Below, piece by piece: positions 6,596 through 30,248 of a DNA stretch of 64,000 bases (its first letter is position 1; the number at the start of each line of letters is the position of its first letter). A model generated the notes under the pieces. It was not told the origin of the DNA and ran no database searches. It saw nothing but the letters and a program-made list of their open reading frames with translations. Both the position numbers and the translations under genes were made by a program. The stretch is from an uncultured Phycisphaerales bacterium (GTDB lineage: Bacteria > Planctomycetota > Phycisphaerae > Phycisphaerales > UBA1924): the NCBI GenBank assembly GCA_937871915.1, contig CALMPG010000103.1, forward strand, positions 1 to 64,000. Reading direction: 5' to 3'.

Positions 6596-8344
6596 TCAGG
6601 GCGAAGGACTTGCCGCGGGATCCGGGGCGATCGGATTGGGGGCAGGGGCGGGGGGTGGGGCTGCGGGGGGTTGGCCGCTTCGGATGGACTGCTTGATCGG
6701 TTCCAGGTCCCACACGGCGATGAACTCGGTGTTCCTGAACCGTTGTCCGGCGATGTTGACAAGCCATGGCGGTGGCGGGGAGCCTTGCCAGTTGACCCAC
6801 GCCCAACGGCCCTGCTCGTCCGGGCGGGTCTGGATGCAGGCCTTGTCGAGATACGTGCAGGCGACCATGGCGCCGTCGGGACCGGCGAAGCCCGGGAGGC
6901 CCGTCGGGCCCTGGGCGGATGTCAGCAGACCGTCGGGGGACTTCCAGATGTACTCCGGCGGGCCCGGGGTGATGGCGCCGGTGCGGGTGTCGAGCGTGGC
7001 CGTGCTGCGGGCTCCGGCGTTCGTCTGGATGAAGAGCGGGAGGGAGACGCCGTCGCGCTCCGGCCATGGATTCATGGAGCACTTGCCCGGGTGCACCGTG
7101 TCGATTGATCGCACCTCTCGCGGCGTGATCCAGAAGATGCGAAACGTGCTTTTGGGTGCGAACCGGTTCCGTGCCCCGAGGGTCTGGAGGACGGCGGTCC
7201 ACGCGGGCGAGTCGCCCGTGGGTTCGGCCTGCCACAGGCTCAACGAGAGCGACCCGAGCAGGGCGGGCGCATCGAGCGTCACCGGGACCTCGAACAGCAG
7301 GGATCGCTTGCCGGTCTCGGCGTCGAGGGACCAGCCCCGGATCACGACGTTCGGTGTCGGCCGTTCGGGCGGCAGCGCGCCGGGTCCCCAGGGTTGGCCG
7401 TCGGCGCGGGCGAGCTCGGCGATGAGCACCTCGTGCGGGTTCTGGAGGAGCGGCACCACCCAGCACCTGCCCGATCTCGGCACGGGCCAGGAGTAGGCCC
7501 GCGGCGGCGACGAGCGAAGATCGACGGCGGAGATCCGCGGAGGTTCGTCCCACGTTGAGGCCCCGGCGATGCACCACGTTCCGTCTGGGGTGAACCGGTA
7601 GTCCGCGTACCCGCCTACGAGCCCGTCGATCCGAGCGATCTCGCGGGCCGTGGGAAGTTCGTACAGGGTCAGCCGGTGCGCATCGGGGTGCGCGGCGTTC
7701 TCGCATCTCTGCAACCGAGGGATGAACAGGGCGTGGGCCAAAAACCCGCTCAGCAGCGGGCTGGGCCACGCCTCCCAGGGGTTCGCCCACGCCGGTGCCG
7801 GCGGCACCGGTTCGAGCGTCTGATTGAGCACCGCCGCGGCCCCGCCGCAGATGATTAGGAACGCCACGATCGGCCCGATCATCCGGCGGGCCCGGGAGCG
7901 AGACTGGCGGGGCGGGCGGGTGGACGTCGGGGTTGCACACTCGGGGCAGACGGCCTGAAGACCGCAAGGCGCAGTGCGGACGGCCGGGTCCGTGCCGGGC
8001 GGAGTCAGGTCGTAGCCGCACCGGCGGCAGAGCCAACGCCCGACCATGCCCGCGTGCAGGCGGGAGGAGCGGTTTTTCCACGCCCGGTGAACGACCCATC
8101 CGAAGGCGAGCATCATGCAGAGGATCGCCAGGTCCGGCGCGTGCCAGCGCAGGTTCGACACGCTCCAGAATCGCGAGTAAAAATCCACGACCACCATCCG
8201 GTCGCCGGCGGGGGTGAACTCGACCACGGGCCACGAGATAGACCCGTCGTTCTGACCCAACAGGGGAAGCCGAATCGCCGGCTGCAACGCGACGGGGCCG
8301 GGCGCGGCCGCGGTGGCCGGAAGGGAGGGCGGGGCGTCGGGCAT
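6596..8344 (-). CDS. Membrane protein with zinc ribbon and beta-propeller-like domain
   Basis: 582 residues, no named family. A hydrophobic segment near 68-86 is followed by a cytosolic loop with a zinc ribbon, [11 protein letters not shown] ... CPEC (about 106-136). A second transmembrane segment lies near 155-175. The C-terminal 380 residues contain repeated YRFTPDGTW- and DLRSS-type strands suggestive of a WD40/beta-propeller fold, ending in a Pro/Ala tail. The zinc ribbon resembles that of the five tandem genes at 13562-16209, so this may be a larger member of the same planctomycete group. The gene stands between pilT and a divergent glycosyltransferase. The domain reading is by eye; the function is unknown. 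Confidence 0.7.
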
Positions 8345-9265: not shown

Positions 9266-10450
9266 TCAGTTGAGGGCGACGAGCTCTTCGTAGTCCTCGC
9301 GGGGCGAGGAGGGGGACTGGGCCATCGACGGGATACCGGGGCCGACGATCTGGCCCGGCTGGCCGGGAACCGCGGGGAGGCCCGCGATTTCGCCCTCGGC
9401 GCCCGGCACTTCCGGGGGCTTGACGCCGAGGAACTTCTGCTCGAGTTCGACGCGGATCTTCTCCATCGCCTTGTTCTGGATCTGCCGGACGCGTTCCTTG
9501 GTGACGCCGATGATCTGGCCGACCTGCTCGAGGGTCATGGGCTTCTCGCCGTCGGTGGTCTCGAGGCCGAAGCGATGCTCGATGACGGTGCGCTCGACGT
9601 CGGTGAGGTCGGCGCGGTTCTCGAGAACGATGCGCTTGACCTCCTCGGCGGCGTCCTTCTCGAAGTCGGCCCGCTTGGTCTCGAGGTAGTTGGAACGCTC
9701 GAGCTTGGGGTCGAAATCGGTCGGGAAGCGCTGGCGGTACTTGCTGAGCTTCATGCCCTGGCGGCTGAAGGCCTTGAGGATGGCGCGGCAGGCGTAGGTG
9801 GAGAACTTGTAGCCGCGCCCGGCGTCGAACTTGTCCACGGCGCGGAGCAGGGCCATGTTGCCCTCGCTGACCAGATCGGCGAAGTCCACCTCGCTCATGC
9901 GGGTGCGCTTGGCCATCGCGAGGACGAGGGCGAGGTTGGTCTCGGCGATCTGCTCGCGGACGCGCTCGGCGATGCGGTACCACTTGAGCATCATCTCGGC
10001 CTGATCGGTCGTGGGCTTTCGGGACTCGGAGCCCCAGACCTGCTTCTGGAGTTCGCTCACGCGGAAGCGGGCGTAGTTGAACTTGTGGAAGAGGACCTTT
10101 TCCTGGGCGCCCGTGAGGATCACCTGCTGGGTGCTCTTGACGGTGCGATGCTTGCCCGGGGACAGGTCGTCCATCACCGGGTGGTACCAGGAGGTGTCGG
10201 GCTTGGCGATGTCGCCGCCGGCGTTGTAGATGATCTCCTCGGCCGTCGGCTCACGGAAGGCCGTGGAGTCGATGTAGTCGATGGGGTTGCTGGGATTGAC
10301 AAGGGTGGCGAGGAGTTTCTCGTCTTCCTTGGAGAGCGAGCGGCGGGTGCGGGGCGCGCTGCCGCGCCCGGCTTGGTCGGCCGTGATCTGCACGCGCGTC
10401 TTGCGCCGGTGCTGCTCGAGGGGGCTGAGGGTGTGCTTCATGTGTACCAT
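9266..10450 (-). CDS. Sigma-70 family RNA polymerase sigma factor, divergent
   Basis: 394 residues. A region 1.2-like segment (about 110-140) is followed by sigma region 2 (DLVSEGNMALLRAVDKFDAGRGYKFSTYA, ending about 220) and a sigma region 4 helix-turn-helix (MTLEQVGQIIGVTKERVRQIQ, about 305-325). The two tryptophans that normally follow FSTYAT in region 2.3 and help melt the promoter are replaced by Cys221 and Arg222. Between regions 2 and 4 there is only a charged linker of about 50 residues and no recognisable region 3. A Pro/Gly-rich tail follows 345. The start is ATG 10450, with AGGAAG a few bases upstream (a second Met follows three codons later). It is therefore unlikely to be the housekeeping factor; I infer an alternative sigma. 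The terminator lies at 9212-9239. Confidence 0.88.
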   Translation of the reverse strand: MVHMKHTLSPLEQHRRKTRVQITADQAGRGSAPRTRRSLSKEDEKLLATLVNPSNPIDYIDSTAFREPTAEEIIYNAGGDIAKPDTSWYHPVMDDLSPGKHRTVKSTQQVILTGAQEKVLFHKFNYARFRVSELQKQVWGSESRKPTTDQAEMMLKWYRIAERVREQIAETNLALVLAMAKRTRMSEVDFADLVSEGNMALLRAVDKFDAGRGYKFSTYACRAILKAFSRQGMKLSKYRQRFPTDFDPKLERSNYLETKRADFEKDAAEEVKRIVLENRADLTDVERTVIEHRFGLETTDGEKPMTLEQVGQIIGVTKERVRQIQNKAMEKIRVELEQKFLGVKPPEVPGAEGEIAGLPAVPGQPGQIVGPGIPSMAQSPSSPREDYEELVALN

Positions 10451-11403
10451 CGATCTTCCTAGCGGGCTCAAAGCCCCGTTTGGTCCGCCTGTTCCGGGCC
10501 GCCAAACCTGGCTGGTCAGGGCGGGTGACTCGTCGTGGAGCCGCCTGTCATGGCCGGCGGGGCGACCTACATCGGTTCGCCTCGCATGAACGCCGCACTG
10601 CATAACGCGCCGTCCTCGGCGGAACTGAGCCGTGGCGTCCTGCCAACAGCACCCGAACGAGTCCGAAACGCGCTCTTCAGCGCTCGTGACCGTCTCCTTT
10701 GCTCCACCTACGCCGGGATCCATCCAGGCGTTCGGTGTTTGGGATGTGCCAGCGGGTTATCCGACCGCCGCGTACCCATTCAATCTACCACACATTCACC
10801 GCAAGAAACCGTTGAACCGGAATGCTTCCGGAGAGAATCTCAGAGCGTTGATGGCCGGAGGCGGCCGACCGAAGTCCGATAGGCATAGGTTTAGGTAAAA
10901 ACCCTGAATATTGATGACAAGCGATATGCTGTTGTACGTCCGAGCCTGAGAAACGTTGCCCAATTCTCCAACCCGCCAGCTCATGTCGATTACCCCAAAA
11001 TCTGGGGGATTAGACCGCCAGCCATCCTTGGTGCGAGCAACGAATCCTCGTGCCCCCATCCTGAGGGCCGGCCACCTACTTCCAGACCCACACCTCGCAT
11101 CCCTGCGAGAGCCCCGCCGCGAGGGCGAGGAATTGGCTGGTATGTCCGTCACAGCGCAACACGCGGAATGGACGCGTTGCACGGCTTGGCGTAGGCTCGC
11201 TGAAAGGGTCAAACGGGGCAAGGTGCTCCGCCTGACCAATGCGAGGGGCGAAGATACCTGATCCGCGGAACATTTGCAACCAACCCGGTCGTCGGCCTGG
11301 AAAAAGGCGAAGTTCTCAAGATAACACCAGTCGATCGCCGGAGATTCCCCCTGTTTCGGCGACGAACGAGCCATTCCCGATCGCGGGCCAAAAGGAGATC
11401 CCC
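10451..11403. other. 950-bp spacer without recognised gene
   Basis: Lower in GC than its surroundings and carrying only weak overlapping open frames on both strands (for example 10956-11261 plus, 10796-11374 minus) without recognisable motifs or good ribosome binding sites. It must hold the promoters of the divergent sigma factor and sodA genes. I could not pick either with confidence. It may be a decayed gene or an insertion remnant. Confidence 0.5.
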
Positions 11404-12039
11404 ATGCCGTTTACGCTGCCCGATCTGCCGTATTCCTTCGACGCCTTGATGCCGTACATCGACGCCAGGACCATGGAAATCCATCACGACAAGCACCACA
11501 AGGCCTATGTGGACAACGCCAACAAGGCCCTCGATGGGACGAAGTGGGCGAACATGGATCCGGTCGAGGTGATCAAGCACCTCGGGGACCTTCCCGACGA
11601 CAAGCGCACGGCGGTGCGCAACAACGCGGGCGGGCACGTCAACCACTCCATGTTCTGGAAGATCATGGCCCCCGCGAGCAAGGGGGGCGGCGGGGAGCCG
11701 ACGGGCGATCTGGCCAAGGCGATCAACGCCGCGTACGGGACCATCGCGCATTTCAAGGAAGAGTTTGCCAAGGCCGCGGCGACCCGGTTCGGTTCGGGCT
11801 GGGCGTGGCTGTGCGTGAAGGCGGATGGGAGCGGCGTGCAGATCTGCTCGACGCCGAACCAGGACAGCCCGTTCATGGGCGAGAAGATCGCGGGGTGCGG
11901 CGGGAAGCCGATCCTCGGGCTGGACGTGTGGGAGCACGCGTACTACCTGCACTATCAGAACCGCCGGCCGGACTATGTCTCGGCGTGGTGGAACGTGGTG
12001 AACTGGGCCGAGGTGGCGAAGAACTACGCGGCCAGGTGA
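11404..12039 (+). CDS. sodA: Superoxide dismutase, Mn type
   Basis: A 211-residue Fe/Mn superoxide dismutase that disproportionates superoxide to oxygen and hydrogen peroxide. Metal ligands are His27 (in EIHHDKHH), His81 ([10 protein letters not shown]), Asp174 and His178 (DVWEHAYYL). The NQDSP segment near 152-156 and the GG before NH favour manganese over iron, though cambialistic use cannot be excluded. There is no signal peptide, so it is cytosolic. The start is ATG 11404 with AAGGAG seven bases upstream. It is followed directly by a strong terminator, so it is monocistronic. It sits a few kilobases from the respiratory operon but is not part of it. Confidence 0.95.
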
Positions 12040-12059: not shown

Positions 12060-12090
12060 AAAGCCCGGGCGCGTGCGCCCGGGCTTTTTT
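12060..12090 (+). terminator. Rho-independent terminator after sodA
   Basis: A perfect 13-base palindrome, AAAGCCCGGGCGC / GCGCCCGGGCTTT with a two-base loop, ends in six T. It begins 20 bases after the sodA stop codon. Confidence 0.92.
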
Positions 12091-12133: not shown

Positions 12134-13555
12134 ATGGGCAAGTGGCTGGCGCTGTCGTGGGTGCTCGTGCTGATCGCGACGCTGGTGGGGATGCAGGGCG
12201 CGCTGTTCGGGACGCGCGGGCTGCCCGCGACTGTGCAGCGGTGGTTCGGGGGCGCGCCGGCGCCGCTGCGGAGGGTTGCGCCGACGCCGATGGAGGCGCA
12301 GCCCGCGGCCAAGGCCGAGCCGAAGGCCGGCGCGAAGATGGTCCAGCCCGAGAGCCTGGAGCAGGGCTTCATCGTGATGGTGACGGACAAGACGCGGATC
12401 GCCAACGCCTCGAGCCCGATCTACATGCCCTCGAGCCACAACGGGTGGAATCCGGCGGACCCGAAGATGCAGTTGCAGGCGCAATCGGACCAGAAGTGGC
12501 GGATCGTGTGGGAGAAGCCGACGCTGGACTCGCGGATCGCGTTCAAGTTTGCGCGCGGGGCGTGGGAGAGGGTGGAGACGGACAAGGACTTCAAGGACAT
12601 CGACAACCGGATGCTCCCGATGGTGGATGTGTCCGGGCTCAAGCCGGGGGAGAAGCCGGTGATCGAACTGACGATCGAGGCTTGGCGCGACCAGATGCCC
12701 GGAGCCAACGTCGCCGATGCCAACGACCGCTATCGCACGATCAATGTCGGCGCGGGAACGCTCAAGCGGCTGGAGGTGGTCGGGGGCGGCGGGCCGGGGG
12801 CGCGGACGCTCAATCGTGATCTGCTGGTGTGGCTGCCGCCGGGGTATGAGGAGCCGGAGAATCGGACCAGGACGTACCCGGTGCTGTACCTGATGGACGG
12901 GCAGAACCTGTTCGACAAACATGGGGCGATCCCGGCGGAGTGGGGGGTGGATGAGACGGCCGCGGCGTTGATCGCGGCGGGAAAGATCGAGCCGATCATC
13001 GTGGTGGGCGTGCCGAACGCGGGGGCGAAGCGGTCGCAGGAGTACACGCCGTTTGCGATGATCGACGGCGTGCGGCCGGGCGGGACGGAGTTCATTGCGT
13101 TCCTGATGAACGAGGCGATGCCGCGCGTTCAGCGGGCGTTTCGCGTCAAGAGCGATCCGGACAACACCGCGATCGGCGGGTCGTCGCTGGGCGCGGTGAT
13201 CGCGCTGGAGGCGGCGACGGAGCATCCTGGCGTGTTCGGCAAGGTGATCTGCGAGAGCATGCCGATGACGACCAAGGAGCGGGCGGCGTTCAAGCACTTC
13301 GCGGCCAAGAAGAACTGGCCGCGCCGGATCGCGATGGGGATGGGCGGGAAGGAGTACGGGAAGGACGACAAGCACGAGGCGCAGAACCGGCAACTGGCGG
13401 GGACGGCCGCGGCGTTCAAGGAGTTGATGGCGGGCAAGGGCCTCGCGAGCGACCGGTTCCGGCTGATCGTGGATGAGGGGGCGCCGCACGATGAGACGGC
13501 GTGGGCGAAGCGGTTGGGCGGGGAGTTGGAGTTTTTGTTTCCGGCGAAGAAGTAG
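12134..13555 (+). CDS. Esterase (alpha/beta hydrolase) with carbohydrate-binding-like N-domain
   Basis: 473 residues. An N-terminal hydrophobic segment (3-25) serves as signal peptide or anchor, and a Pro/Ala linker follows. Residues about 78-185 look like a starch/glycogen-binding type beta domain (SSHNGWNPADPKMQL ... WRIVWEKPT). The catalytic part (about 210-470) is a putative esterase of the Esterase-D/Fes type, with YPVLYLMDGQNLFD at 248-261, nucleophile Ser351 in GGSSLG and a likely catalytic His in GAPHDETAW near 451. It probably acts in the periplasm on an ester of a sugar or siderophore; the substrate is unknown. The start is ATG 12134 with AAAGGA upstream, beyond the sodA terminator. 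It lies just before the zinc-ribbon gene array. Confidence 0.8.
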   Translation: MGKWLALSWVLVLIATLVGMQGALFGTRGLPATVQRWFGGAPAPLRRVAPTPMEAQPAAKAEPKAGAKMVQPESLEQGFIVMVTDKTRIANASSPIYMPSSHNGWNPADPKMQLQAQSDQKWRIVWEKPTLDSRIAFKFARGAWERVETDKDFKDIDNRMLPMVDVSGLKPGEKPVIELTIEAWRDQMPGANVADANDRYRTINVGAGTLKRLEVVGGGGPGARTLNRDLLVWLPPGYEEPENRTRTYPVLYLMDGQNLFDKHGAIPAEWGVDETAAALIAAGKIEPIIVVGVPNAGAKRSQEYTPFAMIDGVRPGGTEFIAFLMNEAMPRVQRAFRVKSDPDNTAIGGSSLGAVIALEAATEHPGVFGKVICESMPMTTKERAAFKHFAAKKNWPRRIAMGMGGKEYGKDDKHEAQNRQLAGTAAAFKELMAGKGLASDRFRLIVDEGAPHDETAWAKRLGGELEFLFPAKK

Positions 13556-13561
13556 AGGAGC

Positions 13562-14089
13562 ATGCTTAGTCAGGCCGAGCGAGAGCGCAGGTATGCGATG
13601 CTCAGCGCCGATCAGCGGTGGGCGCTGGCGCGTCGGCACAAGCCAGCGCAACTGATCCACGCCGTTGCGGCGTTCATCCTCTTTGTTGTTGCGTCGGCGG
13701 TCTGGATCCCAGTGTTGTCTACCGTGCTGGAGGTATTCGGACGCGCGTTCCCCATGATTCCGTCCGTTTTGCGACATGCGCTTCCAGAGTGGTTGAGCCT
13801 CGTTCTGGTTTGCATGCTTGTGTTCGGCCCCCAGGTGGCCGGGTTGGTTTATTGCGCCCGAGCAAGCCAAAAGTTCTGTGCGATGAAAGAGGTCGGTCGA
13901 ACTGCGTGCGACGTGTGCGGGTACTCGCTCATGGGACTGCCTGAGGTCCGCGGTATGGTCCGATGCCCAGAATGTGGGCTGGAAATCGACCTCTCCGCGT
14001 ACGGAACGCATCCGGACGACCTGATCGATGCCCCGGCCGATGACGCGGCGTTTGAGACCGAGGATCGCGGAGTCGATCGACGCGGTTGA
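13562..14089 (+). CDS. Membrane zinc-ribbon protein, array member 1
   Basis: 175 residues. Two transmembrane helices (about 30-57 and 76-100) are followed by a cytosolic zinc ribbon CDVCGYSLMGLPEV ... RCPECG (about 119-142) and an acidic tail. It starts six bases after the esterase stop and leads a row of five genes with the same plan. No catalytic motif is visible. The CGYSL/CPEC pattern recurs in many planctomycete proteins without assigned function. Confidence 0.8.
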   Translation: MLSQAERERRYAMLSADQRWALARRHKPAQLIHAVAAFILFVVASAVWIPVLSTVLEVFGRAFPMIPSVLRHALPEWLSLVLVCMLVFGPQVAGLVYCARASQKFCAMKEVGRTACDVCGYSLMGLPEVRGMVRCPECGLEIDLSAYGTHPDDLIDAPADDAAFETEDRGVDRRG

Positions 14090-14117
14090 CCGGGCGTCGT
14101 CCTGATAGACTGTCCAC

Positions 14118-14627
14118 GTGCGATCGCCGCTCTGGAAGTCCTATCGGGCGTTTCCCGAACTCGATGAGTTCAGCGATGCGCGGTGCCGGGCCTTCATGAA
14201 GGCGGCGGCGAACGGGGCGAATCCGCTGGCCACGATTGACGTGCTGCTGCTCTTCGGGATGCTGTTCTTTCCCGGAAGTTGCATCGGCGGAGTTGCCATG
14301 CTGTTGGTCGCCCAGGCGATCCTCGGGGATGCGGGGCAGAGCGCGTGGAAGATGTTCGTCGGCGTGTTGTTGTTGTCGATCGGGCTGGGCGCGCCGTGCA
14401 TGGCCGCGCTGGCCCTGAGCGATGCGTGGCAGCGGAGACTGCTGCGGAAGCAGATCAAGGGACTGGGTTGTACGGTGTGCGGGTACTCGCTCTTGGGACT
14501 TCGGCCGGTGGCGGGGGCGGTGACGTGCCCGGAGTGCGGGACGCGGCACACGCTCACGGACCTTGGGATCACCGACGAGACCTTGCTCACCCTTACGCCC
14601 GACGCGGGGGGGCCACTGCCGGGATGA
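14118..14627 (+). CDS. Membrane zinc-ribbon protein, array member 2
   Basis: 169 residues from a GTG start. A short N-terminal cytosolic segment with AFPELDEFSD resembles that of members 4 and 5. Two hydrophobic helices follow (about 40-66 and 78-100), then the zinc ribbon CTVCGYSLLGLRPV ... CPECG (about 118-141). It ends in a polar Thr/Leu-rich tail. The spacing to the preceding gene is 28 bases. The function is unknown. Confidence 0.8.
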   Translation: MRSPLWKSYRAFPELDEFSDARCRAFMKAAANGANPLATIDVLLLFGMLFFPGSCIGGVAMLLVAQAILGDAGQSAWKMFVGVLLLSIGLGAPCMAALALSDAWQRRLLRKQIKGLGCTVCGYSLLGLRPVAGAVTCPECGTRHTLTDLGITDETLLTLTPDAGGPLPG

Positions 14628-14639
14628 CAACAATCCCCC

Positions 14640-15107
14640 ATGCCTTGGCCTTGGCCGCCGCTGCACCGGGTGTTTCGCGCCTTCGACCACTTGTCGGAGC
14701 AAGAAGCGGCGCGGGAGTGCTCGCGGATGCTGCGCCGGGACCGTCTGGCGATGCTGCTCGACGCCGGGACGTTCGGGATGTGCGCGATGATCGCGATGTC
14801 GCTGGGGACGTGCCTGGCGAGCGCGGGGGTGTTGTCGATTCTCGGCGGTCGGGACCCGGGATGGGTGGAGGGGGCGATAGTGGTGGGCGGATGCACGGCG
14901 GTGGTGGTTGTTTCGTACCTTGCCGCCGCGTGGCGATTCCAAAGGCTTGCGGCCGGAACGCTGGCGCACCGGCTGGGGCCGGCGAACGACCGGGTGTGGA
15001 ACTTGTGCTCGAAGTGTTCGTATCCGCTGACCGGTCTACCGGTAGAAGGGGGGCGGGTGGTGTGTCCGGAGTGCGGAGAGTCGCATCCGTGGATGGACGG
15101 ATATTGA
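14640..15107 (+). CDS. Membrane zinc-ribbon protein, array member 3
   Basis: 155 residues. The N-terminal segment contains HRVFRAFDHLSEQEAARE, followed by two hydrophobic helices (about 42-66 and 76-98). The zinc ribbon is CSKCSYPLTGLPVE ... CPECG (about 124-147), with Ser in place of the usual Gly after the second Cys. It starts 12 bases after member 2, suggesting co-transcription. The function is unknown. Confidence 0.8.
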   Translation: MPWPWPPLHRVFRAFDHLSEQEAARECSRMLRRDRLAMLLDAGTFGMCAMIAMSLGTCLASAGVLSILGGRDPGWVEGAIVVGGCTAVVVVSYLAAAWRFQRLAAGTLAHRLGPANDRVWNLCSKCSYPLTGLPVEGGRVVCPECGESHPWMDGY

Positions 15108-15119
15108 GGAGCCGAGCGC

Positions 15120-15629
15120 GTGGCGTGGCCGTGGAGACATCCCTTCAAGAAGTTCCCGCAGTTCGAGCATCTGCCGGAGGCGGAGGCGCGCGTGGCGGCG
15201 TCGAGGATGGTGCGTGATATCCACGGCCATCTGATGTTCGAGGGCATCAGCGCCGGGGTGATCGCGACCGTGGTCGGGTGTGTTGTCCTGATCCCCGCGG
15301 CGATTCTGATTCGCATGGGGAACGGCATCCCGGGGGCGGGGCTGATCACTCCGGCGATGACCGTCTTGCCGGCCGCGCTTGTCGGGTACCTTTGGGGAAG
15401 CAGGCACCACAGGGACTTGCTTCGGGCGGCTCTGGAGACCCGGTTGACGAGCGACCCCCAGATTCTGGCCCGGCGGTGCGCCGAGTGCGAATACTCGCTC
15501 GTTGGATTGCCGATGAAGTCCGACCGCACGATCACCTGCCCGGAGTGCGGGCAGGGATGCGTGGTGCCGCCGCCATCCTCCGGCCCACCGGCCTCAACCT
15601 CGGGGGCCGCGGCTGGTACACCCGTCTGA
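15120..15629 (+). CDS. Membrane zinc-ribbon protein, array member 4
   Basis: 169 residues from a GTG start. The N-terminal KKFPQFEHLPEAEARVAASRM block matches that of member 3. Two hydrophobic helices (about 43-67 and 75-93) are followed by CAECEYSLVGLPMK ... CPECG (about 120-143) and a Pro/Ser/Ala tail. The ribbon has Glu where Gly is usual after CAEC. It starts 12 bases after member 3. The function is unknown. Confidence 0.8.
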   Translation: MAWPWRHPFKKFPQFEHLPEAEARVAASRMVRDIHGHLMFEGISAGVIATVVGCVVLIPAAILIRMGNGIPGAGLITPAMTVLPAALVGYLWGSRHHRDLLRAALETRLTSDPQILARRCAECEYSLVGLPMKSDRTITCPECGQGCVVPPPSSGPPASTSGAAAGTPV

Positions 15630-15645
15630 GCCCCGCTCATCTCCC

Positions 15646-16209
15646 ATGCGTCGCTTCTCCGCCATCTTCGCGATCCCCGAACTGGAGAAGTACTCCGACG
15701 ACGAGTTTGTCGTGCTCATGCGCAAAGCGCGGCTGCGACGGGGGGATGCGCTGTGGGTGATCCCCGCGCTCTGGGGCTTCGTGGGGGCGGTCGTGTGGGT
15801 TGGCGTGACGGCGGTCATGACGTTCGGGCTCAAGTCCACCGGGCTGAGCCTGACGGGCAACGGCATGGCGAGGTGGATCGGGCTCAACGTGTTCGTGGGG
15901 TTACTGGTGGCGGTGGCGGTCGGGGCGGCGGTGCGGTGGTGGATGCTGGTGCGGTCGATCCGGCGGCTGGTGAACAAGGCGGGGTGCCCGTACTGCGAGT
16001 TCTCGATGGTGGGGTTGCGGGTGAGCGCGGGGTGGGTGCGGTGCCCGGAGTGCGGGGAGCGGGTGTATATCTTCGACGAGAACCTGACGGAGGAGGACCT
16101 GATGACCGACGCGGAGCGATACACCCCGCCGCCGGGGATCGGGGCGGGGGAGATGGGTGCGTACATCAAGCCCGAGCGGATCCGCAGGATCGAGGCGCGC
16201 CGGCGGTGA
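15646..16209 (+). CDS. Membrane zinc-ribbon protein, array member 5
   Basis: 187 residues. It opens with a short basic segment and IPELEKYSDDEFVVLMRKA, again like the other members. Two transmembrane helices (about 37-60 and 78-105) are followed by CPYCEFSMVGLRVS ... CPECGERVYIF (about 118-145). A longer polar C-terminal tail ends in Arg-rich ERIRRIEARRR. It is the last gene of the array and is convergent with the cyanophycinase gene 18 bases away. The function is unknown. Confidence 0.8.
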   Translation: MRRFSAIFAIPELEKYSDDEFVVLMRKARLRRGDALWVIPALWGFVGAVVWVGVTAVMTFGLKSTGLSLTGNGMARWIGLNVFVGLLVAVAVGAAVRWWMLVRSIRRLVNKAGCPYCEFSMVGLRVSAGWVRCPECGERVYIFDENLTEEDLMTDAERYTPPPGIGAGEMGAYIKPERIRRIEARRR

Positions 16210-16227: not shown

Positions 16228-17388
16228 TCAGTTCGCGGGCTTGACGATCACCCGGAGATTCGCGAAGCAGGGAGTGCGGCCGGGGACGCCGACGTAGACG
16301 TTGGATCGGTCGTCGGCGATGAACGTGAGCGATGTGCGCCCGTCGGTGAGGGTGACATGTGCGGAGCGGCCGCCGCCGGAGGCGATGCGGCCGAGCGCCT
16401 TGCGAATGGTCGCGGATTCCCAGACGTCGGAAACGGTCTCCGCAGCTTCGAGGATGCCCTGTGTGCGCACATCCGTGCCGGGCGCGGCGGCGTGAATCCT
16501 GCGCCCTTCGGCGAGGTCGCCCGATGCGAGGATGGAGATGCGCAGGTCGGCAGCGTCGGGGGTGAACGCGCCGGGAGCGGTTGCGTCGATGAGCCAGACG
16601 GCGAACTCATCGCCGAGGGCCTCGATGTCGCCGGTGGAGCGATCGACGATGATCCCGCAGTTTTCGCTCACCGCATAGCCGCGCCGGATCCCCGTGTCGC
16701 GCATGGCGTCGATGAGGCGGCCGAGGCGGCCGCGCTGGATGAAGTGCTGGTCGGTGAGGCCGTGCGTGAAGAAGCCCATTCCGGGAGCCGTGGTCACGTG
16801 GCGAGAGTCCTGATTGTCGGGGTCGGAGTTCTTTGCTGTCCGGGCCGAGGGCGAGCGGCCGCCGGTGATCATGGGGTCGGACATCATGGCCGCGCCGGCG
16901 GAGGTTCCGCCGATGACTCCGTTCTTGTCGTTGAGGACGGAGAGGCACGCGGCGTAGCAGGCGGTTTGGCGGGCGGGATCGGGGCGGAGGACCTTGGTGA
17001 TGCGGGACTGATCGCCGCCGGTGAACCAGAGTCCGCCGCAGGAGCGGATCTGGGCGGCGATGGCGGGGTCCTCGGCCTTGTCGGCGTCGTTTTGGGTGAG
17101 CGGGATGACGATGACTGGGCGCGTGGCGGAATACTTCCGCCAGCGCTGGGCGGTGCTCTCGCCAGCCTTGATGCCATCGCCGCTGGCGAGGGGGATGATG
17201 CCGATGGGGCCGTCGGCGCAGAGGGACTCGAATCGGTTGAAAATGGGGGCGTTCTCGTCCTTGAGGCCGCCGCCGACGATGACGAGGTGGCCGGTGGCAC
17301 GGTTGGGCTCGTAGCCCGAGGAGCGGATGGTGGAGGAGCATCCGGGAAGAAGCGTGAGCAGAAGCAGTAGGAAAAGGGAGCGGGTCAC
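16228..17388 (-). CDS. cphB: Exported cyanophycinase (peptidase S51) lipoprotein
   Basis: 386 residues. Cyanophycinase cleaves the storage polymer multi-L-arginyl-poly-L-aspartate to beta-Asp-Arg dipeptides. It begins with a signal peptide and lipobox LPGC (Cys17), so it acts outside the cytoplasm, as extracellular CphE-type enzymes do. S51 motifs are present: VIVGGG (36-41), FTGGDQ (122-127) and the nucleophile Ser164 in GGTSAGAA. The last 120 residues form an extra beta-rich domain. The GTG start at 17388 overlaps the stop of the isoaspartyl peptidase gene (GTGA), indicating translational coupling with the enzyme that would hydrolyse its product. Family confidence is high. The substrate is inferred; other S51 peptidases act on Asp dipeptides. 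Confidence 0.85.
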   Translation of the reverse strand: MTRSLFLLLLLTLLPGCSSTIRSSGYEPNRATGHLVIVGGGLKDENAPIFNRFESLCADGPIGIIPLASGDGIKAGESTAQRWRKYSATRPVIVIPLTQNDADKAEDPAIAAQIRSCGGLWFTGGDQSRITKVLRPDPARQTACYAACLSVLNDKNGVIGGTSAGAAMMSDPMITGGRSPSARTAKNSDPDNQDSRHVTTAPGMGFFTHGLTDQHFIQRGRLGRLIDAMRDTGIRRGYAVSENCGIIVDRSTGDIEALGDEFAVWLIDATAPGAFTPDAADLRISILASGDLAEGRRIHAAAPGTDVRTQGILEAAETVSDVWESATIRKALGRIASGGGRSAHVTLTDGRTSLTFIADDRSNVYVGVPGRTPCFANLRVIVKPAN

Positions 17389-18410
17389 TTGGCGGCCTCC
17401 GTGATGGTCTCGGGTTTGTCCCAGATGGATACGTCGAATCGGCCGCGGGAGTCGGCCGCGCCGCGGAACATGCCCTCGGAGTTGTAAATCATGGCGATCT
17501 CGCCGGTGCGGGAGATGACGATGACGCCGCCGTCGTCGGGCTTGAGGCGGTGGTTGACGACGGTGTCGGCGGCGCCGGCGGCGGAGCGGTTCATCTCGAC
17601 GAGGAGGGCGATCTGGCGGGCGACGCCGTGGCGGATGAACTCCTCGCCGGTGCCGGTGCAGGAGATGGCGGCGTGTGCGTCGGCGTAGTTGCCCGCGCCG
17701 ATGATGGGCGTGTCGCCGACGCGCCCCCAGCGTTTGCAGGTGAGGCCGCCGGTGCTTGTGGCCGCGGCGAGGTTGCCGTGGGAATCGAGGGCGACGGCGC
17801 CGACGGTGCCGTAGGTGGAGCGGGGGTCGGCGGGGGTCTGGGATTGCTTGTCGAGTTCGGCGCGGCGTTCCTTCCAGTACTCGCGACGCTGGGGCGTGTC
17901 GAAGAAGGTGTTGTCCACGCGATCGACGCCCATCTTGGTGGCGAACTGTTCCGCGCCGTCGCCCGTGAGGAGGACGTGCGGGGAGCGATCCATCACGAGG
18001 CGGGCGAGGCCGACGGGGCTGCGGACGGTCTTGACGCCCGCGACCGCGCCGCACTTCAATGTTGCACCGTCCATGATGGAGGCGTCGAGTTCGTGCGTGC
18101 CGTCGTAGGTGAAGACCGCGCCCTTGCCGGCGTTGAAGAGGGGATTCTCTTCGAGGGTGTTGACGACCTTCTGCACGGCGTCGAGGGCGGTGCCGCCGCG
18201 GGCGAGTTCGTTGCGACCGATTTCCAGTGCGGCGGCGAGGGAGCGGGCGTACTCGGCACGCTCCTCGGGCGGGGCGACTTTGTCGAGGACGCCTGCGCCG
18301 CCGTGGATGGCGATGGCCCAGTCACCTTTGGGCGCGGCGGTCGGCGTTGCGGAGCAGCCTTGGAGGGCGAAGAGGGAGAGGAGGAGGAGCGGGATGAGGA
18401 GTTCGCGCAT
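17385..18410 (-). CDS. iaaA: Isoaspartyl peptidase / L-asparaginase, lipoprotein form
   Basis: A 341-residue Ntn-hydrolase of the type 2 asparaginase family, which hydrolyses beta-aspartyl dipeptides and asparagine. The signal peptide carries lipobox LQGC (Cys19), whereas most relatives are cytosolic. AIHGGAG (34-40) and the self-cleavage site before Thr202 (in STYGTVGAVALD) mark the alpha and beta chains. It precedes and overlaps the cyanophycinase gene by four bases. Together the two could turn exported cyanophycin into free Asp and Arg. No ribosome binding site is seen. A hairpin with a T run ends two bases before the ATG, so expression may depend on read-through or a promoter inside that region. 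Confidence 0.9.
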   Translation of the reverse strand: MRELLIPLLLLSLFALQGCSATPTAAPKGDWAIAIHGGAGVLDKVAPPEERAEYARSLAAALEIGRNELARGGTALDAVQKVVNTLEENPLFNAGKGAVFTYDGTHELDASIMDGATLKCGAVAGVKTVRSPVGLARLVMDRSPHVLLTGDGAEQFATKMGVDRVDNTFFDTPQRREYWKERRAELDKQSQTPADPRSTYGTVGAVALDSHGNLAAATSTGGLTCKRWGRVGDTPIIGAGNYADAHAAISCTGTGEEFIRHGVARQIALLVEMNRSAAGAADTVVNHRLKPDDGGVIVISRTGEIAMIYNSEGMFRGAADSRGRFDVSIWDKPETITEAAK

Positions 18411-18492: not shown

Positions 18493-19803
18493 TCAAGCCT
18501 TCTTGATGATGTCCACCGGGCGGTACGATGCCTCGAGGATCTTCTTGCTGTCGGCCTTCATCCAGCCCTCGAGGACGCCCGCGTAGACGGAGCGGAAGTC
18601 GATCTGGTACTTCAGGTCGCCCGCGTCGAGGTCGGTGAGCGAGGGGTGGTTGCCCACGACGCCGGGCCGGACCATCGGGCCGATGACGAACATCGGGGCG
18701 GCCGCGCCGTGGTCCGTGCCGCCGGAGGCGTTTTGCTGCACGCGCCGGCCGAACTCGGAGAAGGAGACGGTGAGGACGCGCGAGTCGTTGCCCTGCTTCT
18801 TGAGGTCGTCGTAGAAGGCCTTGATGGAGGAGCCGACCTGGGTGAGGAGTTGGGCCTGGCGGCCGTTCTCGCCACCCTGGCCGGCGTGGGTGTCGAAGCC
18901 GCCGAGGGTGACGTAGTAGACGCGGGTCTTGAGCCCGGCGCGGATCATGCTCGCGACCATCTGGAGCTGGCGGGCCAGGTCGCTGTTGGGGTACTGGGCG
19001 AGGGGGCGCTGCGCGACGGCCTTGCGGATCTGGTCGCTGGCGATCTGGGCGTCCATGGACGTGCGCATCAGGAAGCCGGCGGTGGAGTTCGGGTCGGTCG
19101 CGCCCGTGACGCCGCGCTCGTTGATTTCCTTGTACGCGGGGATCAGGCTCTTCTCGACGCCGCCGCCGAGCCACTGGAAGAGCTCGCTGGACTCGAAGCC
19201 GATGGGCTTGGACATCTGGCCCTGCATGGCCAGCGGGGCCTCCTTGCCGATGGCGATGCCCGCCAAGGGCTCGGGGGTGGCCTTGCCGGAGGCGTCGAAG
19301 CCGCAGCAGTCGTTGTCGAAATAGCGGCCGAGCCAGCCGTTGCCGGTGGCGGTGGTGTCGGCGGTCTGCCAGATGTCCATGCTCTTGAAGTGCGAGCGGT
19401 TGGGGTTGGGGTAGCCCACGCCCTGCACGATCGAGAGCATGCCGTTGTCGTAGAGGTCCTTGAAGCCGCCCAGGCTGGGGTGGAGGCCGACGGTGGCGTC
19501 CTTGGAGAGCTTGAGGACCTTGTTCTCGGGGATGCCGATGGCGGGGCGGGCCTTGTAGTAGTTGCCGTCGCGGTAGGGGACGACGGTGTTCAGGCCGTCG
19601 TTGCCGCCGCCGAGCTGCACGATGACCAGCACGTGGTCCTCGGGCATGCCGGGGGTGCTGGTGAGGCCGAAACCGGGGAGGAGCGCGGCGGCGGACTTCT
19701 GAACGAAGTACGGCACCGTGGACGCGGCGGAGGCCATGACCAGGCCGCGGGCCATGAACGAGCGGCGGGTGAACGGATTGAAGTTCTCGAGATCAAAGGC
19801 CAT
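18493..19803 (-). CDS. DUF1501 family Tat-exported protein
   Basis: 436 residues of the DUF1501 family (sulfatase/alkaline phosphatase-like fold), abundant in planctomycetes and of unknown activity. A twin-arginine signal, NPFTRRSFMARG (9-20), is followed by a hydrophobic stretch to about 45. Family blocks include VIVQLGGGNDGLNTVVPY, NRSHFKSMDIWQT, TLGGFDTHAGQ and SFSEFGRRVQQNASGGTDHGAAAPMF cut at typical positions along the chain. I chose ATG 19803 because GAGGAA lies just upstream; the in-frame start at 19914 would hide the Tat motif internally. It is encoded 107 bases after the DUF1800 gene, the usual pairing in this phylum, and both end at the hairpin 18412-18437. Confidence 0.92.
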   Translation of the reverse strand: MAFDLENFNPFTRRSFMARGLVMASAASTVPYFVQKSAAALLPGFGLTSTPGMPEDHVLVIVQLGGGNDGLNTVVPYRDGNYYKARPAIGIPENKVLKLSKDATVGLHPSLGGFKDLYDNGMLSIVQGVGYPNPNRSHFKSMDIWQTADTTATGNGWLGRYFDNDCCGFDASGKATPEPLAGIAIGKEAPLAMQGQMSKPIGFESSELFQWLGGGVEKSLIPAYKEINERGVTGATDPNSTAGFLMRTSMDAQIASDQIRKAVAQRPLAQYPNSDLARQLQMVASMIRAGLKTRVYYVTLGGFDTHAGQGGENGRQAQLLTQVGSSIKAFYDDLKKQGNDSRVLTVSFSEFGRRVQQNASGGTDHGAAAPMFVIGPMVRPGVVGNHPSLTDLDAGDLKYQIDFRSVYAGVLEGWMKADSKKILEASYRPVDIIKKA

Positions 19804-19910
19804 GGGGAGTTCCTCGGACGGTCGGGGCCTCGGGGCGGAGAAATCGGGACTGGGTCGGAGACGGTGGGGGCTTGGCTTGATCTGGGGGATGTCTGTTCCA
19901 GATCGGAGTT

Positions 19911-21518
19911 TCAACAGAGCTGGTATTCGGGCATGGCGGTGACGAGCAGGAACATCTGTGTGAGTGTGTCGCTCGTGACATTCGTGCCGCTCCGGCGGAG
20001 GATGTCTACGAGGATCGCGCGGTTATGGGGCTCGGAGCGGCCGATGGCGAAGCGGAGGACGCCGTCGGCGATCTCCTCGGGCGGCGAGGAGGAGGAGAGG
20101 CCCATCTGGTCCAGGAGCGGCATGGGGTCGAAGGTTTCCTGCTTGGCCAGGGGGTCGAATCCGGAGGGTGTACGCCCCGTGAGCAGGAAGCACAGGATGT
20201 TCTGGCGGATGTACATGGTGGCGGTGTTGATCCACGATCGGCCGCCGTCCCAGCCCTTTACGCTCGGGGGGAAGAAGATGTTCTGCCCCATCATGTTCAT
20301 GGCGTCGGCGAGGACGCCCAGGTCGCGGGCGGGGGTGTTGAGGGAGCGGACGCCGCCGACCACCAGTTGGGTGGGGGACTTGATCTGCTCGTTCATGATC
20401 CGGGGCTGGTAGAAATGCTCGCTGAGGAAGAGGCGGCGGAGGAGGGGCTTGACCTCGTAGCGGGAGGAGATGAAGGTGGACTCGAGGGAGGTGAGGACGC
20501 CGGCGGCGGCCGCGTCCAGGGGCTTGTTGCCGGTGGGATAGTCCAGCACGAAGTAGCGGTAGAGCTTGCGGGTCATGTGGCGGGCGCAGGCGGGCCGGGC
20601 GAGGATGGCCTTGACGAACTCGTCGCCGTCGAGGGCGCCGCGGGCGCCGAGGATCTGCTTGACGCCGGAGTCGTGGTTGGTGCGCTTGAAGACGAACTCG
20701 TCGTCGTCGAAGGTGTAGCCGGTGAGGGCCCGGGCGCCCTCTTTGATGTCCTTCTCGGTGTAGTTGCCCACGCCGAGGGAGAAGAGCTCCATGATCTCTC
20801 GGGCGAGGTTCTCGTTGGGCTTGTCCTTGCGGGAGTCGTCGTTGTTGAGGTACTTGAGCATCGCGGGGTCGCGGATGATCTCGAACATCAGCTTGGCGTA
20901 GCTCCCCACCGCGTGCTTGCGGAAGAGCTGGTTCTGCACGAACATGTGGTACGAGTCTTCGATCGTCCGGTAGGACGTGGCGAAGTGGCCGTGCCAGAAG
21001 AGGGTCATCTTCTCTTCGAGCGGGCGCGGCGTCTCGATCATGCGCTTGAGCCACCAGTGCTGGATGTCGCGCATCTGCCGGCGGTCGTCCCGCTCGGCCT
21101 CCTGGCGCCGGGCCCGGAGGCGGGTGACGGCCTCCTCGTCGCCCTTTCGGCGGGCCATGGCGATCTCGCCGCGCTCCTCGCCGGAGACGGGGCGCATGAT
21201 ATCGTGATCGAAGGCGGTGGCCTTGACCTCGTCGAAGGGGATCTTGTCGGGGTTGAGGAGGTGCTCGACGCTCTTCTCGGGGCCCCAACTGACGAGGGTG
21301 GCGATCTGGGCGGGCGATCCGCCGAAGCCGGCGCGATTGAGCAGGTGGCGGGCGTGGTCGTAGCCCCAGTCCTTGGACTTGATGGGGGCGAGAGAGGCGA
21401 AGGAACGCCACTGGGCGCCGATGGGCGGGGCGGACTGCTCCGGCGGGTCGGACGCGCTCGGGGGCGGTGGGGGGGTGTTGGAGTCGGGCTGGGAGGCCGT
21501 CGAAGCGGATGGCTGCAT
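19911..21518 (-). CDS. DUF1800 family protein
   Basis: 535 residues of the DUF1800 family. The opening 35 residues are Ser/Pro-rich and low complexity. The family signature begins with DHARHLLNRAGFGGSP (about 54-69). WHGHFATS, NENLAREIMELFSLG, GARALTGYTF and the C-terminal SVKGWDGG segments are also present. No clear signal peptide is seen. DUF1800 and DUF1501 genes are regularly adjacent in planctomycetes and other bacteria and probably act together, but no biochemical role is established. It lies downstream of ctaA on the same strand, with about 100 bases between them. Confidence 0.9.
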   Translation of the reverse strand: MQPSASTASQPDSNTPPPPPSASDPPEQSAPPIGAQWRSFASLAPIKSKDWGYDHARHLLNRAGFGGSPAQIATLVSWGPEKSVEHLLNPDKIPFDEVKATAFDHDIMRPVSGEERGEIAMARRKGDEEAVTRLRARRQEAERDDRRQMRDIQHWWLKRMIETPRPLEEKMTLFWHGHFATSYRTIEDSYHMFVQNQLFRKHAVGSYAKLMFEIIRDPAMLKYLNNDDSRKDKPNENLAREIMELFSLGVGNYTEKDIKEGARALTGYTFDDDEFVFKRTNHDSGVKQILGARGALDGDEFVKAILARPACARHMTRKLYRYFVLDYPTGNKPLDAAAAGVLTSLESTFISSRYEVKPLLRRLFLSEHFYQPRIMNEQIKSPTQLVVGGVRSLNTPARDLGVLADAMNMMGQNIFFPPSVKGWDGGRSWINTATMYIRQNILCFLLTGRTPSGFDPLAKQETFDPMPLLDQMGLSSSSPPEEIADGVLRFAIGRSEPHNRAILVDILRRSGTNVTSDTLTQMFLLVTAMPEYQLC

Positions 21519-23285: not shown

Positions 23286-24206
23286 GTGTCGACCATCTTC
23301 CCGAAGTGGATGAACCAGCTTCCCACCCTGCTGGCGGGAGGTGCGCTGAGCACGCTCGCGCTGGGAGTGGGGGGCATGTGGTACTACGCCACGCCGAAGT
23401 TTTTCCGCGCCGGCTACATGCCCGCGCAGCCGCACCTATCCGAGCAGGCCGAGGCCCGCATCGTCAAGACCGCGCGGGCCGCGGTCCGGGCGCCGGAGAT
23501 TCCCGGGAGCACGTTCCCGGGATTCAGCCACCAGATCCACGCGGGCAAGCTCGGCATGGACTGCCGCTATTGCCACAGCCAGGTGGAGAACTCGGCGGAG
23601 GCGAACATCCCGTCGGTGAGCACGTGCATGGGGTGCCACGCCGACGGGCACGTGAACGACGAGATGTACGCGAAGAAGTTCCGGGTGCAGTTCATCCGCG
23701 ATGCGTGGGAGGCCGGGGCGCGGTTCGACGAGATCGACGCGCTGAAGAAGGCCGGCAAGTTCGAGGAGGCCGACGCGAAGATGCGGGCGTATCAGGAGGA
23801 GAGCCTGTCGGTGGTCGAGGGGGGGGCCTCGATCCCGTGGCGGCGCATCCACAAGCTGCCCGACTACGTGCGGAACTTTCCGCACAACGTGCACATCAAC
23901 GCGGGGGTGAGCTGCTACTCGTGCCACGGGGCGATCAACGAGATGCCGGTGGTGCACCAGGTGCAGCCGCTGAGCATGTCGTGGTGCCTGGAGTGCCACG
24001 CGGACCCGGCGCCGCACCTGGTGCCGCGCGAGAAGGTCACGGACCTGTATTGGGTGCAGAAGCGGCTGGGCGAGGGCAACGGCCCGTACACGGCCGGCGG
24101 CGATCCGCTGGACGTGGGGTCGGAGGGCGGGGTGGCACTGCTCAAGAAGCTGGAAATGAAGAAGCTCCACCTGCTCCCGCAGAACTGCGGGGCGTGCCAC
24201 TACTGA
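23286..24206 (+). CDS. actA: Alternative complex III subunit ActA, pentaheme cytochrome c
   Basis: A 306-residue membrane-bound multiheme cytochrome c that carries electrons within alternative complex III, the menaquinol:electron-acceptor oxidoreductase that replaces bc1. One hydrophobic N-terminal anchor (about 12-33) leads to a periplasmic domain with five CxxCH sites: CRYCH (93-97), CMGCH (114-118), CYSCH (210-214), CLECH (234-238) and CGACH (301-305). This matches the usual pentaheme form. The start is GTG 23286 with GAGGAG upstream. It is the first gene of the operon. A 7-base tandem repeat fills the spacer to actB. Confidence 0.93.
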   Translation: MSTIFPKWMNQLPTLLAGGALSTLALGVGGMWYYATPKFFRAGYMPAQPHLSEQAEARIVKTARAAVRAPEIPGSTFPGFSHQIHAGKLGMDCRYCHSQVENSAEANIPSVSTCMGCHADGHVNDEMYAKKFRVQFIRDAWEAGARFDEIDALKKAGKFEEADAKMRAYQEESLSVVEGGASIPWRRIHKLPDYVRNFPHNVHINAGVSCYSCHGAINEMPVVHQVQPLSMSWCLECHADPAPHLVPREKVTDLYWVQKRLGEGNGPYTAGGDPLDVGSEGGVALLKKLEMKKLHLLPQNCGACHY

Positions 24207-24209
24207 GCA

Positions 24210-24237
24210 GTGCCGAGTACCAAGTGCCGAGTGCCGA
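24210..24237 (+). repeat. Four 7-base tandem units in actA-actB spacer
   Basis: GTGCCGA, GTACCAA, GTGCCGA, GTGCCGA in succession, starting four bases after the actA stop. Comparable 14- and 9-base repeats lie in other spacers of the same operon. Confidence 0.75.
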
Positions 24238-24262
24238 GACAGAGCAGAAGACAGGAAACCCG

Positions 24263-27200: not shown

Positions 27201-27979
27201 AGGGCATCAACTACATGGTGTACAACCGGTGCATCGGCACCCGGTACTGCGCCAACAACTGCCCGTACAAGGTGCGCCGGTTCAACTTCTTCGACTACGG
27301 CGTGAAGAAGATCAACGGCGACTACATCGGCAAGGCGTCGATGGAGGCCGTGGGCGTGGGCCCGAAGAACGTGAACCTGATCCCGCCGCGCCTTCGCGAG
27401 CGGCTCGACGAGATCACCAAGCTGGGGATGAACCCGAACGTCACGATCCGGTCGCGCGGCGTGATGGAGAAGTGCAACTATTGCCTGCAGCGGATCAACG
27501 AGGCCCGTATCGAGGTCAAGCTCAAGAATCTCGAGGCGATCCCCGACGGGTTCTTCCAGGTGGCCTGCCAGCAGGCGTGCCCGGCCGACGCGATCACGTT
27601 CGGCGACATCTCCGACGATCAGACCAAGTATCCCGAGCCCGGGGGCGCCAGGCGCACCGGCAGCCGGGTGCGAGGCCTGCGGAATCACCAGCGGGCGTAC
27701 ATGCTGCTGGGGTATCTCAACACCCGTCCGCGCACGACCTACCTGGCCGGCATCCGCAATCCGAACCTGAACCTCATCAGCGCCGACCGAGACTTCCGGA
27801 TGCACAACCCGTTCGAGCATGGGCACGAGGCGGGCGAGCCCGGCGGCGGCGGGCCGGAGAACGGGGCGGCGGTCGAGCACGGCAGTGCGGCGATTCACAA
27901 TGTCTTCGATCCGGCCAAGGCCGGCAATGACGCGGGCTATCGGCTGAGCCTCGCGGTGATGGAGCGGACCCACGCATGA
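24263..27979 (+). CDS. actB: Alternative complex III subunit ActB, molybdopterin-like/iron-sulfur fusion
   Basis: A 1238-residue fusion of two modules known from ActB. The N-terminal part (to about 890) is a molybdopterin-oxidoreductase-like domain; in this family it lacks the cofactor. The C-terminal part is a four-cluster ferredoxin domain with [39 protein letters not shown] and CNYCLQR ... CQQACPAD. A twin-arginine motif [11 protein letters not shown] (64-74) directs Tat export. The iron-sulfur clusters pass electrons from the quinol site toward the ActA/ActE hemes. The start is ATG 24263; the open frame upstream overlaps actA out of frame. Its stop overlaps the actC start (ATGA). Confidence 0.94.
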
Positions 27980-29538: not shown

Positions 29539-29573
29539 GTTCGGAGTTTGCGGGGCGCGCGGGCGCCGAGTAG

Positions 29574-29600
29574 ATAGGACCCATCGGACCAACAGGACCT
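29574..29600 (+). repeat. Three 9-base tandem units in actC-actD spacer
   Basis: ATAGGACCC, ATCGGACCA, ACAGGACCT run in register just upstream of actD. A related, weaker pattern (AGGTCCCGC, GGGTCCAAG) is present in the coxC-coxD spacer near 37697-37714. Confidence 0.65.
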
Positions 29601-29609
29601 ATACCAAGC

Positions 29610-30179
29610 ATGGCCAAGGCACACAACACAATCTACAAGACCAGCGCGGGCGAGGTGGTGTACGGGATGATGGCGGAGTTCGCCACGCCCGCCGACACCT
29701 TCCACGCCGCGGAGAAGATCCGTGATTCCGGGTACAAGAAGTGGGACGTCTACTCCCCGTTCATGATCCACGGCATCGACGAGGCGATGGGGCTCAAGAA
29801 CAGCCGCCTGCCGCTGGCGGTGGGCCTGATCGGTCTGACCGGCGCGGCCGTCGGCTTCGGGTTCCAGTACTGGGTGGCGACGCGGGGATTCGGCACCGTC
29901 GTGCAGGGCAAGCCCCTTGGCGCCTGGCAGGCGTTCATCCCGGTGACGTTCGAGATCGGCGTGCTCTTCACGGCGTTCACGGCGCTCCTGGCCATGCTCG
30001 CCTTCAACCTGCTGCCGATGTGGTACCACCCGCTCATGAAGAAGGAGCGGTTCCTGCGCGTGAGCGACGATCGATTCGTCATCTGCATCGAGTCCCGCGA
30101 CCCCAACTTCGATTCCAAGAAGACCTGGTCGCTGCTGGAGGGGGCCAAGGGGTACAACGTGCAGCTGGTGGAAGAGTGA
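29610..30179 (+). CDS. actD: Alternative complex III subunit ActD (DUF3341)
   Basis: 189 residues. The N-terminal cytosolic half contains VYGMMAEFATPADTFHAAEKIRDSG and KWDVYSPFMIHGID, hallmark blocks of DUF3341. Two transmembrane helices (about 70-92 and 110-132) surround FGFQYW. A short cytosolic tail ends the protein. It is a membrane subunit of alternative complex III without a cofactor; its exact role is not established. The start is ATG 29610. The stop codon lies inside the first unit of a 14-base repeat that continues into the spacer. Confidence 0.93.
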   Translation: MAKAHNTIYKTSAGEVVYGMMAEFATPADTFHAAEKIRDSGYKKWDVYSPFMIHGIDEAMGLKNSRLPLAVGLIGLTGAAVGFGFQYWVATRGFGTVVQGKPLGAWQAFIPVTFEIGVLFTAFTALLAMLAFNLLPMWYHPLMKKERFLRVSDDRFVICIESRDPNFDSKKTWSLLEGAKGYNVQLVEE

Positions 30180-30213
30180 GCGGTGGAGAGTGAGAAGCGG
30201 CGAGTGAGAAGCG
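30174..30213 (+). repeat. 14-base repeat in actD-actE spacer
   Basis: Units begin GAGTGAG at 30174 (partial), 30188 and 30202, with GAGTGAGAAGCG in the last two. The first overlaps the actD stop. A related AGCGGAGAGTGAGA stretch occurs near 45328 downstream of gyrA. Confidence 0.65.
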
Positions 30214-30248
30214 AGAAGGTCGGAACCCGTTCGAGCCCGAATGACACG

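Follow-up and report, generated by a model that had tools for sequence, protein, structure and literature searches.

A five-gene array of predicted membrane zinc-ribbon proteins beside a superoxide dismutase gene in an uncultured Phycisphaerales bacterium

The array and its neighbouring genes

The window analysed here is a 64,000-nucleotide stretch of one contig from an uncultured Phycisphaerales bacterium, and five adjacent ORFs, R1 to R5, occupy positions 13562-16209 of its forward strand (Table 1). The first-pass annotation had described five adjacent paralogous genes, each coding for two helices and a CPECG ribbon and spaced by 12-28 bases. ORFs, alignment and hydrophobic segments bear this out: the intergenic gaps are 28, 12, 12 and 16 bases, two hydrophobic segments lie N-terminal to the ribbon in all five proteins, and the ribbons share the pattern C-x2-C-x-[YF]-[SP]-[LM]-x-GL ... 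CPECG. The proteins align at C116, C119, G125, L126 and CPECG, with 25-29% identity to R1. Codon-position GC is coding-like in R2-R5 (GC3 0.81-0.94) and weaker in R1 (0.70). An F-PEL-D/E start, also ascribed to the array, is present in two of the five genes, R2 (FPELDEF) and R5 (IPELEKY); R4 has FPQFEHL, and R1 and R3 are without the motif. R2, and with a variant motif R5, thus belong to what we define here as the RAFPELD-2TM-ribbon family, while R1, R3 and R4 share its transmembrane (TM) helices and ribbon only, not the RAFPELD N-terminal motif.

Related ribbons had been suggested for two further proteins of the window. The suggestion holds for the 582-aa protein and fails for the membrane protein at 56585-57487, which was set aside as a family member for its different zinc-ribbon type; the family profile matched neither. 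A protein elsewhere in the genome that is similar to the latter also bears a GL-type ribbon.

An esterase gene ends 6 bases before R1, and the ribbon-gene transcript therefore probably begins upstream of the array, with the esterase leading. The esterase ORF is open from 12050, a start lying before the intrinsic terminator that follows the superoxide dismutase (SOD) gene, and its true start is probably the ATG at 12134. Given this terminator, and the strong ones that come after SOD in about half of the relatives examined, SOD probably forms a transcript of its own; co-transcription of SOD with the ribbon unit is weakened accordingly, although the neighbourhood is conserved. The divergent sigma-70 factor is a neighbour of SOD in many related loci too. 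At the other end, the peptidase S51-like gene forms the convergent boundary of the array and also adjoins the single ribbon gene in the same-genus genome G001, and an asparaginase-like orthologue is kept beside the ribbon gene in same-genus genomes (L129, L130). The cyanophycinase-like and isoaspartyl peptidase/asparaginase-like genes are themselves adjacent (16228-18410), and a role of this pair in cyanophycin breakdown is possible.

Table 1 Features of the window and of related loci
Feature	Position	Strand	Details
Protein outside the array	6596..8344	−	582 aa; related ribbon CRRCGYDL...CPEC
Sigma-70 family factor	9269..10723	−	Pfam Sigma70_r2 4e-13, r4 9e-14; divergent from SOD
Fe/Mn superoxide dismutase	11404..12039	+	Pfam Sod_Fe_C 4.9e-40, Sod_Fe_N 1.5e-30; 11404 the likely true start
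Intrinsic terminator	12060..12087	+	Perfect 12-bp stem and T run, directly after SOD
Membrane-anchored esterase (PF00756)	12134..13555	+	Pfam Esterase 1.9e-26
R1	13562..14089	+	175 aa; two TM helices; ribbon CDVCGYSLMGLPEVRGMVRCPECG; without PEL motif
R2	14118..14627	+	GTG start; 169 aa; N-terminus YRAFPELDEFSDARC; two TM helices; ribbon CTVCGYSLLGL...CPECG; SOD-locus type
R3	14640..15107	+	155 aa; two TM helices; ribbon CSKCSYPLTGL...CPECG
R4	15120..15629	+	GTG start; 169 aa; two TM helices; ribbon CAECEYSLVGL...CPECG
R5	15646..16209	+	187 aa; two TM helices; ribbon CPYCEFSMVGL...CPECG; conserved long tail
Peptidase S51/cyanophycinase-like protein	16228..17358	−	Peptidase_S51 2.7e-4, just under cut-off
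Isoaspartyl peptidase/asparaginase-like protein	17385..18410	−	Named from sequence alone
DUF1501 protein	18493..19914	−	Pfam 4.8e-25; conserved locus neighbour
DUF1800 protein	19911..21518	−	Pfam 6.9e-109; conserved locus neighbour
Alternative Complex III genes	23286..31076	+	Multihaem cytochrome, NrfD 1.5e-20, ActD 1.5e-56, cytochrome c (Pfam); flank the locus
Membrane protein, different ribbon type	56585..57487		CTECG...CTRCG
Protein similar to the 56585-57487 product	L068 2740-3768		GL-type ribbon
Long class	L094 3238-5211 and about 35 more loci among L232-L290		Some adjoin 3-hydroxybutyryl-CoA dehydrogenase
SOD-locus ribbon protein	L132 6072-6683		Two tandem ribbons
Ribbon copies lacking a cysteine	L291 5001-5474, L228 5001-5495		Minus one of the four cysteines
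Anchored proteins with GAGAGDTGGANAIGE	L240 4744-5001, L262 1515-1841, L286 4369-5004, L224 3490-4977, others
Second ribbon family	L063 4473-7115 (contig C80), L066 2047-3575 (C173); also L062, L074, L065, L072		Tandem arrays

Predicted topology, fold and known relatives

Lysine and arginine outnumber aspartate and glutamate at the N-terminus (8.1 vs 4.5) and in the linker between TM2 and the ribbon (5.5 vs 1.4), with 1.7 vs 1.7 in the outer loop. Because the positive charges fall at these two places and not in the outer loop, the N-terminus and the ribbon are predicted to lie in the cytosol with a TM hairpin between them. An AlphaFold2 model of R2, built on an 88-row alignment, consists of a helical hairpin and a ribbon (mean pLDDT 85, ribbon 91-95) whose strands are predicted at residues 134-136 and 143-145. 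With CxxC...CPEC in five of five proteins, the array members are predicted to adopt the zinc ribbon fold of two cysteine knuckles and a beta hairpin, and the ribbons would be expected to bind zinc. The four ribbon cysteines are retained in 99-100% of the 88 aligned members, and an N-terminal cysteine, Cys23, is kept in 76 (86%) though it lies outside the search pattern. Across the alignment columns, the two cytosolic ends show the lowest entropy (1.8 and 1.6 bits), and the highest values, 3.1-3.4, fall in the helices and loop; the RAFPELD positions had in part been chosen by the search itself, whereas the ribbon formed no part of that scan.

No Pfam or NCBIfam model reaches its curated cut-off for the array proteins, and PHROG and PADLOC gave no match of weight, the only one being a weak PADLOC match of R4 to a Cas12f zinc ribbon (E 0.004); a defence or phage origin was rejected on these grounds. 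With no fitting family in the four libraries, the first-pass statement that the array has no assigned role stands. A fold search of R2 and the fused long form described below against the PDB returned nothing significant, a result that excludes no family, and its middling Z-scores belonged to generic helical hairpins and repeats. Our literature search found no title or abstract describing the ribbon family, an absence made weak by its open-access scope.

Classical zinc ribbons (DUF1610 6ydh; the RPA12/TFIIS type; Pfam DZR, Zn_Ribbon_1 and Zn_ribbon_4) likewise have two CxxC/CPxC knuckles and a small beta hairpin, but the array ribbon hangs from a TM hairpin, carries the specific signature C-x-YSLxGL and scores below the Pfam cut-offs. 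A four-Cys ribbon with a variable tail is also shared with Ruc (Rv0991c), which we take to be a member of the FmdB-type family (TIGR02605; R2 15.8 and R4 14.2 bits against a cut-off of 31.3, which neither reaches). In Ruc the ribbon is N-terminal, the variable C-terminus is largely disordered and the TM hairpin of the array proteins is absent.

The spacing CxxCGY...CPxCG is similar to that of the rubredoxin-like domain of rubrerythrin (PF21349), to which 8 of 37 ribbon proteins are weakly similar (best 2.4e-5; R2 scores 13.5 against 26.5 bits). A rubredoxin-like iron site that transfers electrons to a stress-related oxidoreductase is nevertheless very improbable, since the best solved whole-ribbon relative by sequence is the DUF1610 zinc ribbon 6ydh (E 7.5e-4), the highest structural probability in a Foldseek search with R2 went to an RNA polymerase I zinc ribbon (subunit entry 7ob9_I, prob 0.80, E 1.3, non-significant), and a redox partner gene is absent directly beside the array. 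The array proteins also differ from rubrerythrin in being membrane-anchored and in lacking its four-helix di-iron domain.

Ancestry of the array and spread of the family

We placed the five proteins in a tree of 36 rows (LG+C20, careful search), in which long branches make exact placements soft. R1-R5 as a single clade is rejected at a cost of 53 log units (AU p=0.0056), and with it a recent tandem amplification of all five; R1-R4 as one clade is not rejected (AU p=0.30). R5 clusters with same-locus orthologues of several other genera (support 100/100), R3 and R4 are sisters (99/88), R1 stands apart, and the position of R2, amid the SOD-locus type, lacks strong support. Only the R3-R4 pair looks like a local duplication, and on this tree the array is most readily understood as an old assemblage that includes one such duplication, not a single recent burst. 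Local gene amplification, as first proposed, is therefore not supported as one event, given the rejected clade and the R5 orthologues in other genera, and looks likely for R3 and R4 alone; by the refuting condition first set for it, independent origins of the five, the proposal fails in part.

The array ribbon recurs about 40-80 times in this 4.2-Mb genome, and the five array genes are real paralogues, not chance. A profile built from the five genes gave 38 matches at E<=1e-3 and 77 at E<=10, R1-R5 included, and the CPECG DNA pattern occurred 79 times vs 0 for the reversed control. C-x2-C, GL and CPEC are common to 45 ribbon segments of the genome, partly by construction of the search. We extended the pattern count across the phylum, in 195 genomes. 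Most of the Phycisphaerales families sampled have about 10-118 CPECG sites per genome, with 5-8 in a few members; one family of the order has 4-7. Elsewhere in the phylum there are 0-14 sites, usually 2-7. Low counts are a baseline and not family members, as the pattern also catches unrelated CPECG proteins. The superfamily is unnamed and expanded in Phycisphaerales.

A search for RAFPELDxF in genomes representing 84,980 species, with matches confirmed, yielded 75 loci. Nearly all lie in planctomycete assemblies, most of which bear Phycisphaerales or Phycisphaeraceae in their titles; one carries the title Leptolyngbya and is probably a mislabelled record. The loci fall into two classes, short proteins (~165 aa) and long fused proteins (~660 aa). 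The latter have the N-terminus, hairpin and ribbon of the short type followed by a third TM helix C-terminal to the ribbon, which agrees with cytosolic ends, and a helical C-terminal domain of ~450 aa that had no Pfam match and ends in LPxDPxxGxPxxYR...LYSxGxDGxDD. One SOD-locus protein carries two tandem ribbons (Table 1).

Loci of the short class show a recurrent gene order of divergent sigma-70 factor, SOD, an optional membrane-anchored protein or esterase, the ribbon gene or genes, DUF1501 and DUF1800, and often continue with CtaA and a cytochrome. Where a locus had 3 kb of sequence on its upstream side, SOD or the esterase was encoded there in 18 of 31 short vs 0 of 31 long loci (p=2e-7, kinship ignored). 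Ribbon genes were found 3' of the esterase in 9 of 43 relatives; their abundance in the genome would predict 2-3% (p 3e-7 to 9e-6, kinship ignored). Many relatives encode, between SOD and the ribbon gene, a small anchored protein that bears GAGAGDTGGANAIGE; this motif also opens many esterases and was found in 85-aa, 200-aa and full-esterase forms. Ribbon copies at the site range from 0 to 5, even within the relatives of one family, with one in same-genus G001 (an R5 orthologue) and two in G002.

Such variation in copy number, together with strong divergence and the loss of a ribbon cysteine at two loci (L291, L228), would suit a weakly useful family that expands by birth and death and has no role particular to the locus. 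We regard this as improbable, because near-complete retention of the four cysteines, the conserved N-terminal motif and synteny across many genera argue for selection. An equally improbable alternative is that the array encodes assembly or accessory subunits of a nearby envelope or respiratory complex, with a purely structural ribbon: the locus flanks Alternative Complex III, CtaA lies there in other genomes, and variable copy number could mean lineage-specific subunits, but 0-5 copies at the site within one family ill suits an essential subunit, and the ribbon module is elsewhere fused to other domains.

Candidate roles of the array

Oxidation sensing is the leading rival explanation, albeit an unlikely one, because of the fifth cysteine (Cys23) and the position near SOD and respiratory genes. 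Oxidants from respiration or lost SOD activity would oxidise the Cys4 site and the fifth cysteine, release zinc and change the hairpin, which would then signal or start a protective activity. SOD adjoins the short type in many genera, Alternative Complex III or CtaA genes lie near, Cys23 is conserved though outside the search pattern, and there is a precedent in the zinc-ribbon protein Ruc, which turns into a chaperone upon oxidation (PMC7448276). Against such thiol/zinc redox sensors, the fused long type has the same cysteine set and no SOD neighbour in its 31 loci, in about half of the loci, this one included, a terminator stands between SOD and the ribbon unit, and R1, R4 and R5 lack Cys23. 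CPECG ribbons, furthermore, are usually structural.

The reading we favour, tentatively, is that the array encodes membrane-anchored Cys4 zinc-ribbon adaptors whose constant cytosolic face docks a shared partner. Each protein would span the membrane as a hairpin whose two ends both lie in the cytosol; the constant face, comprising the ribbon and, in the R2 type, the RAFPELD...SDxxC start, would most likely dock the shared cytosolic partner, and the variable membrane part and tail would pair with locus-specific partners. For this array the latter would probably be the membrane-anchored esterase or anchor protein co-encoded beside SOD. We base an adaptor or receptor family with a shared partner on the constant cytosolic ends, the variable membrane part and the tens of copies. 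The profile and pattern counts, which show a large family and no one-off, the recurrent unit with a GAGAGDTGGANAIGE anchor or esterase upstream, and the combination of charge bias, four-Cys retention and a confident R2 hairpin-ribbon model all point the same way. Against adaptors, the esterase of the window lacks the GAGAG motif, and linkage is confined to the counts given above, 9 of 43 for the esterase loci and 18 of 31 for ribbon loci of the short type.

The array had been taken to suggest interchangeable sensor parts, a claim that we do not uphold, as its tails and helices are merely divergent. Variable sensor parts mounted on a constant ribbon are a more plausible reading of a second ribbon family of this genome, which forms tandem arrays. 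Its N-terminus (MKPHPKLRKTIKW...) and helix-ribbon end are constant, and its outer loop is hypervariable, at 17-68 aa. The start MKPHPKLRKTIKWGGAAVTVLLVVVWIGSGW has 21 matches in this genome but occurs once in G001 and is absent from G002. Across 13 second-family genes, this start shows 73% amino acid and 80% DNA identity, with identical codons at 74% vs 40% expected; identity is 52% (amino acid) at the helix-ribbon end and near random in the outer loop (19% amino acid, 47% DNA). Five of the genes stand in tandem on contig C80, some with overlaps of 4 bases. A constant N-terminus and ribbon around a hypervariable loop fits many receptors feeding one reader.

On a broader and unlikely view, adaptors of this kind would belong to an order-wide signalling or quality-control system, in which each genome would encode membrane receptors, from dozens to about a hundred, that combine the same cytosolic Cys4 ribbon and one cytosolic reader with fast-diversifying outer parts, the SOD-side array being its oxidative-stress branch. 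The libraries searched contain no name, model or role for this family, which genomes throughout an environmental bacterial order carry in tens of copies. The array links one of its branches to a conserved locus of superoxide dismutase and respiratory genes, and offers a handle for functional tests. If many receptors do share one cytosolic reader, the family would represent an unrecognised layout of bacterial signalling.
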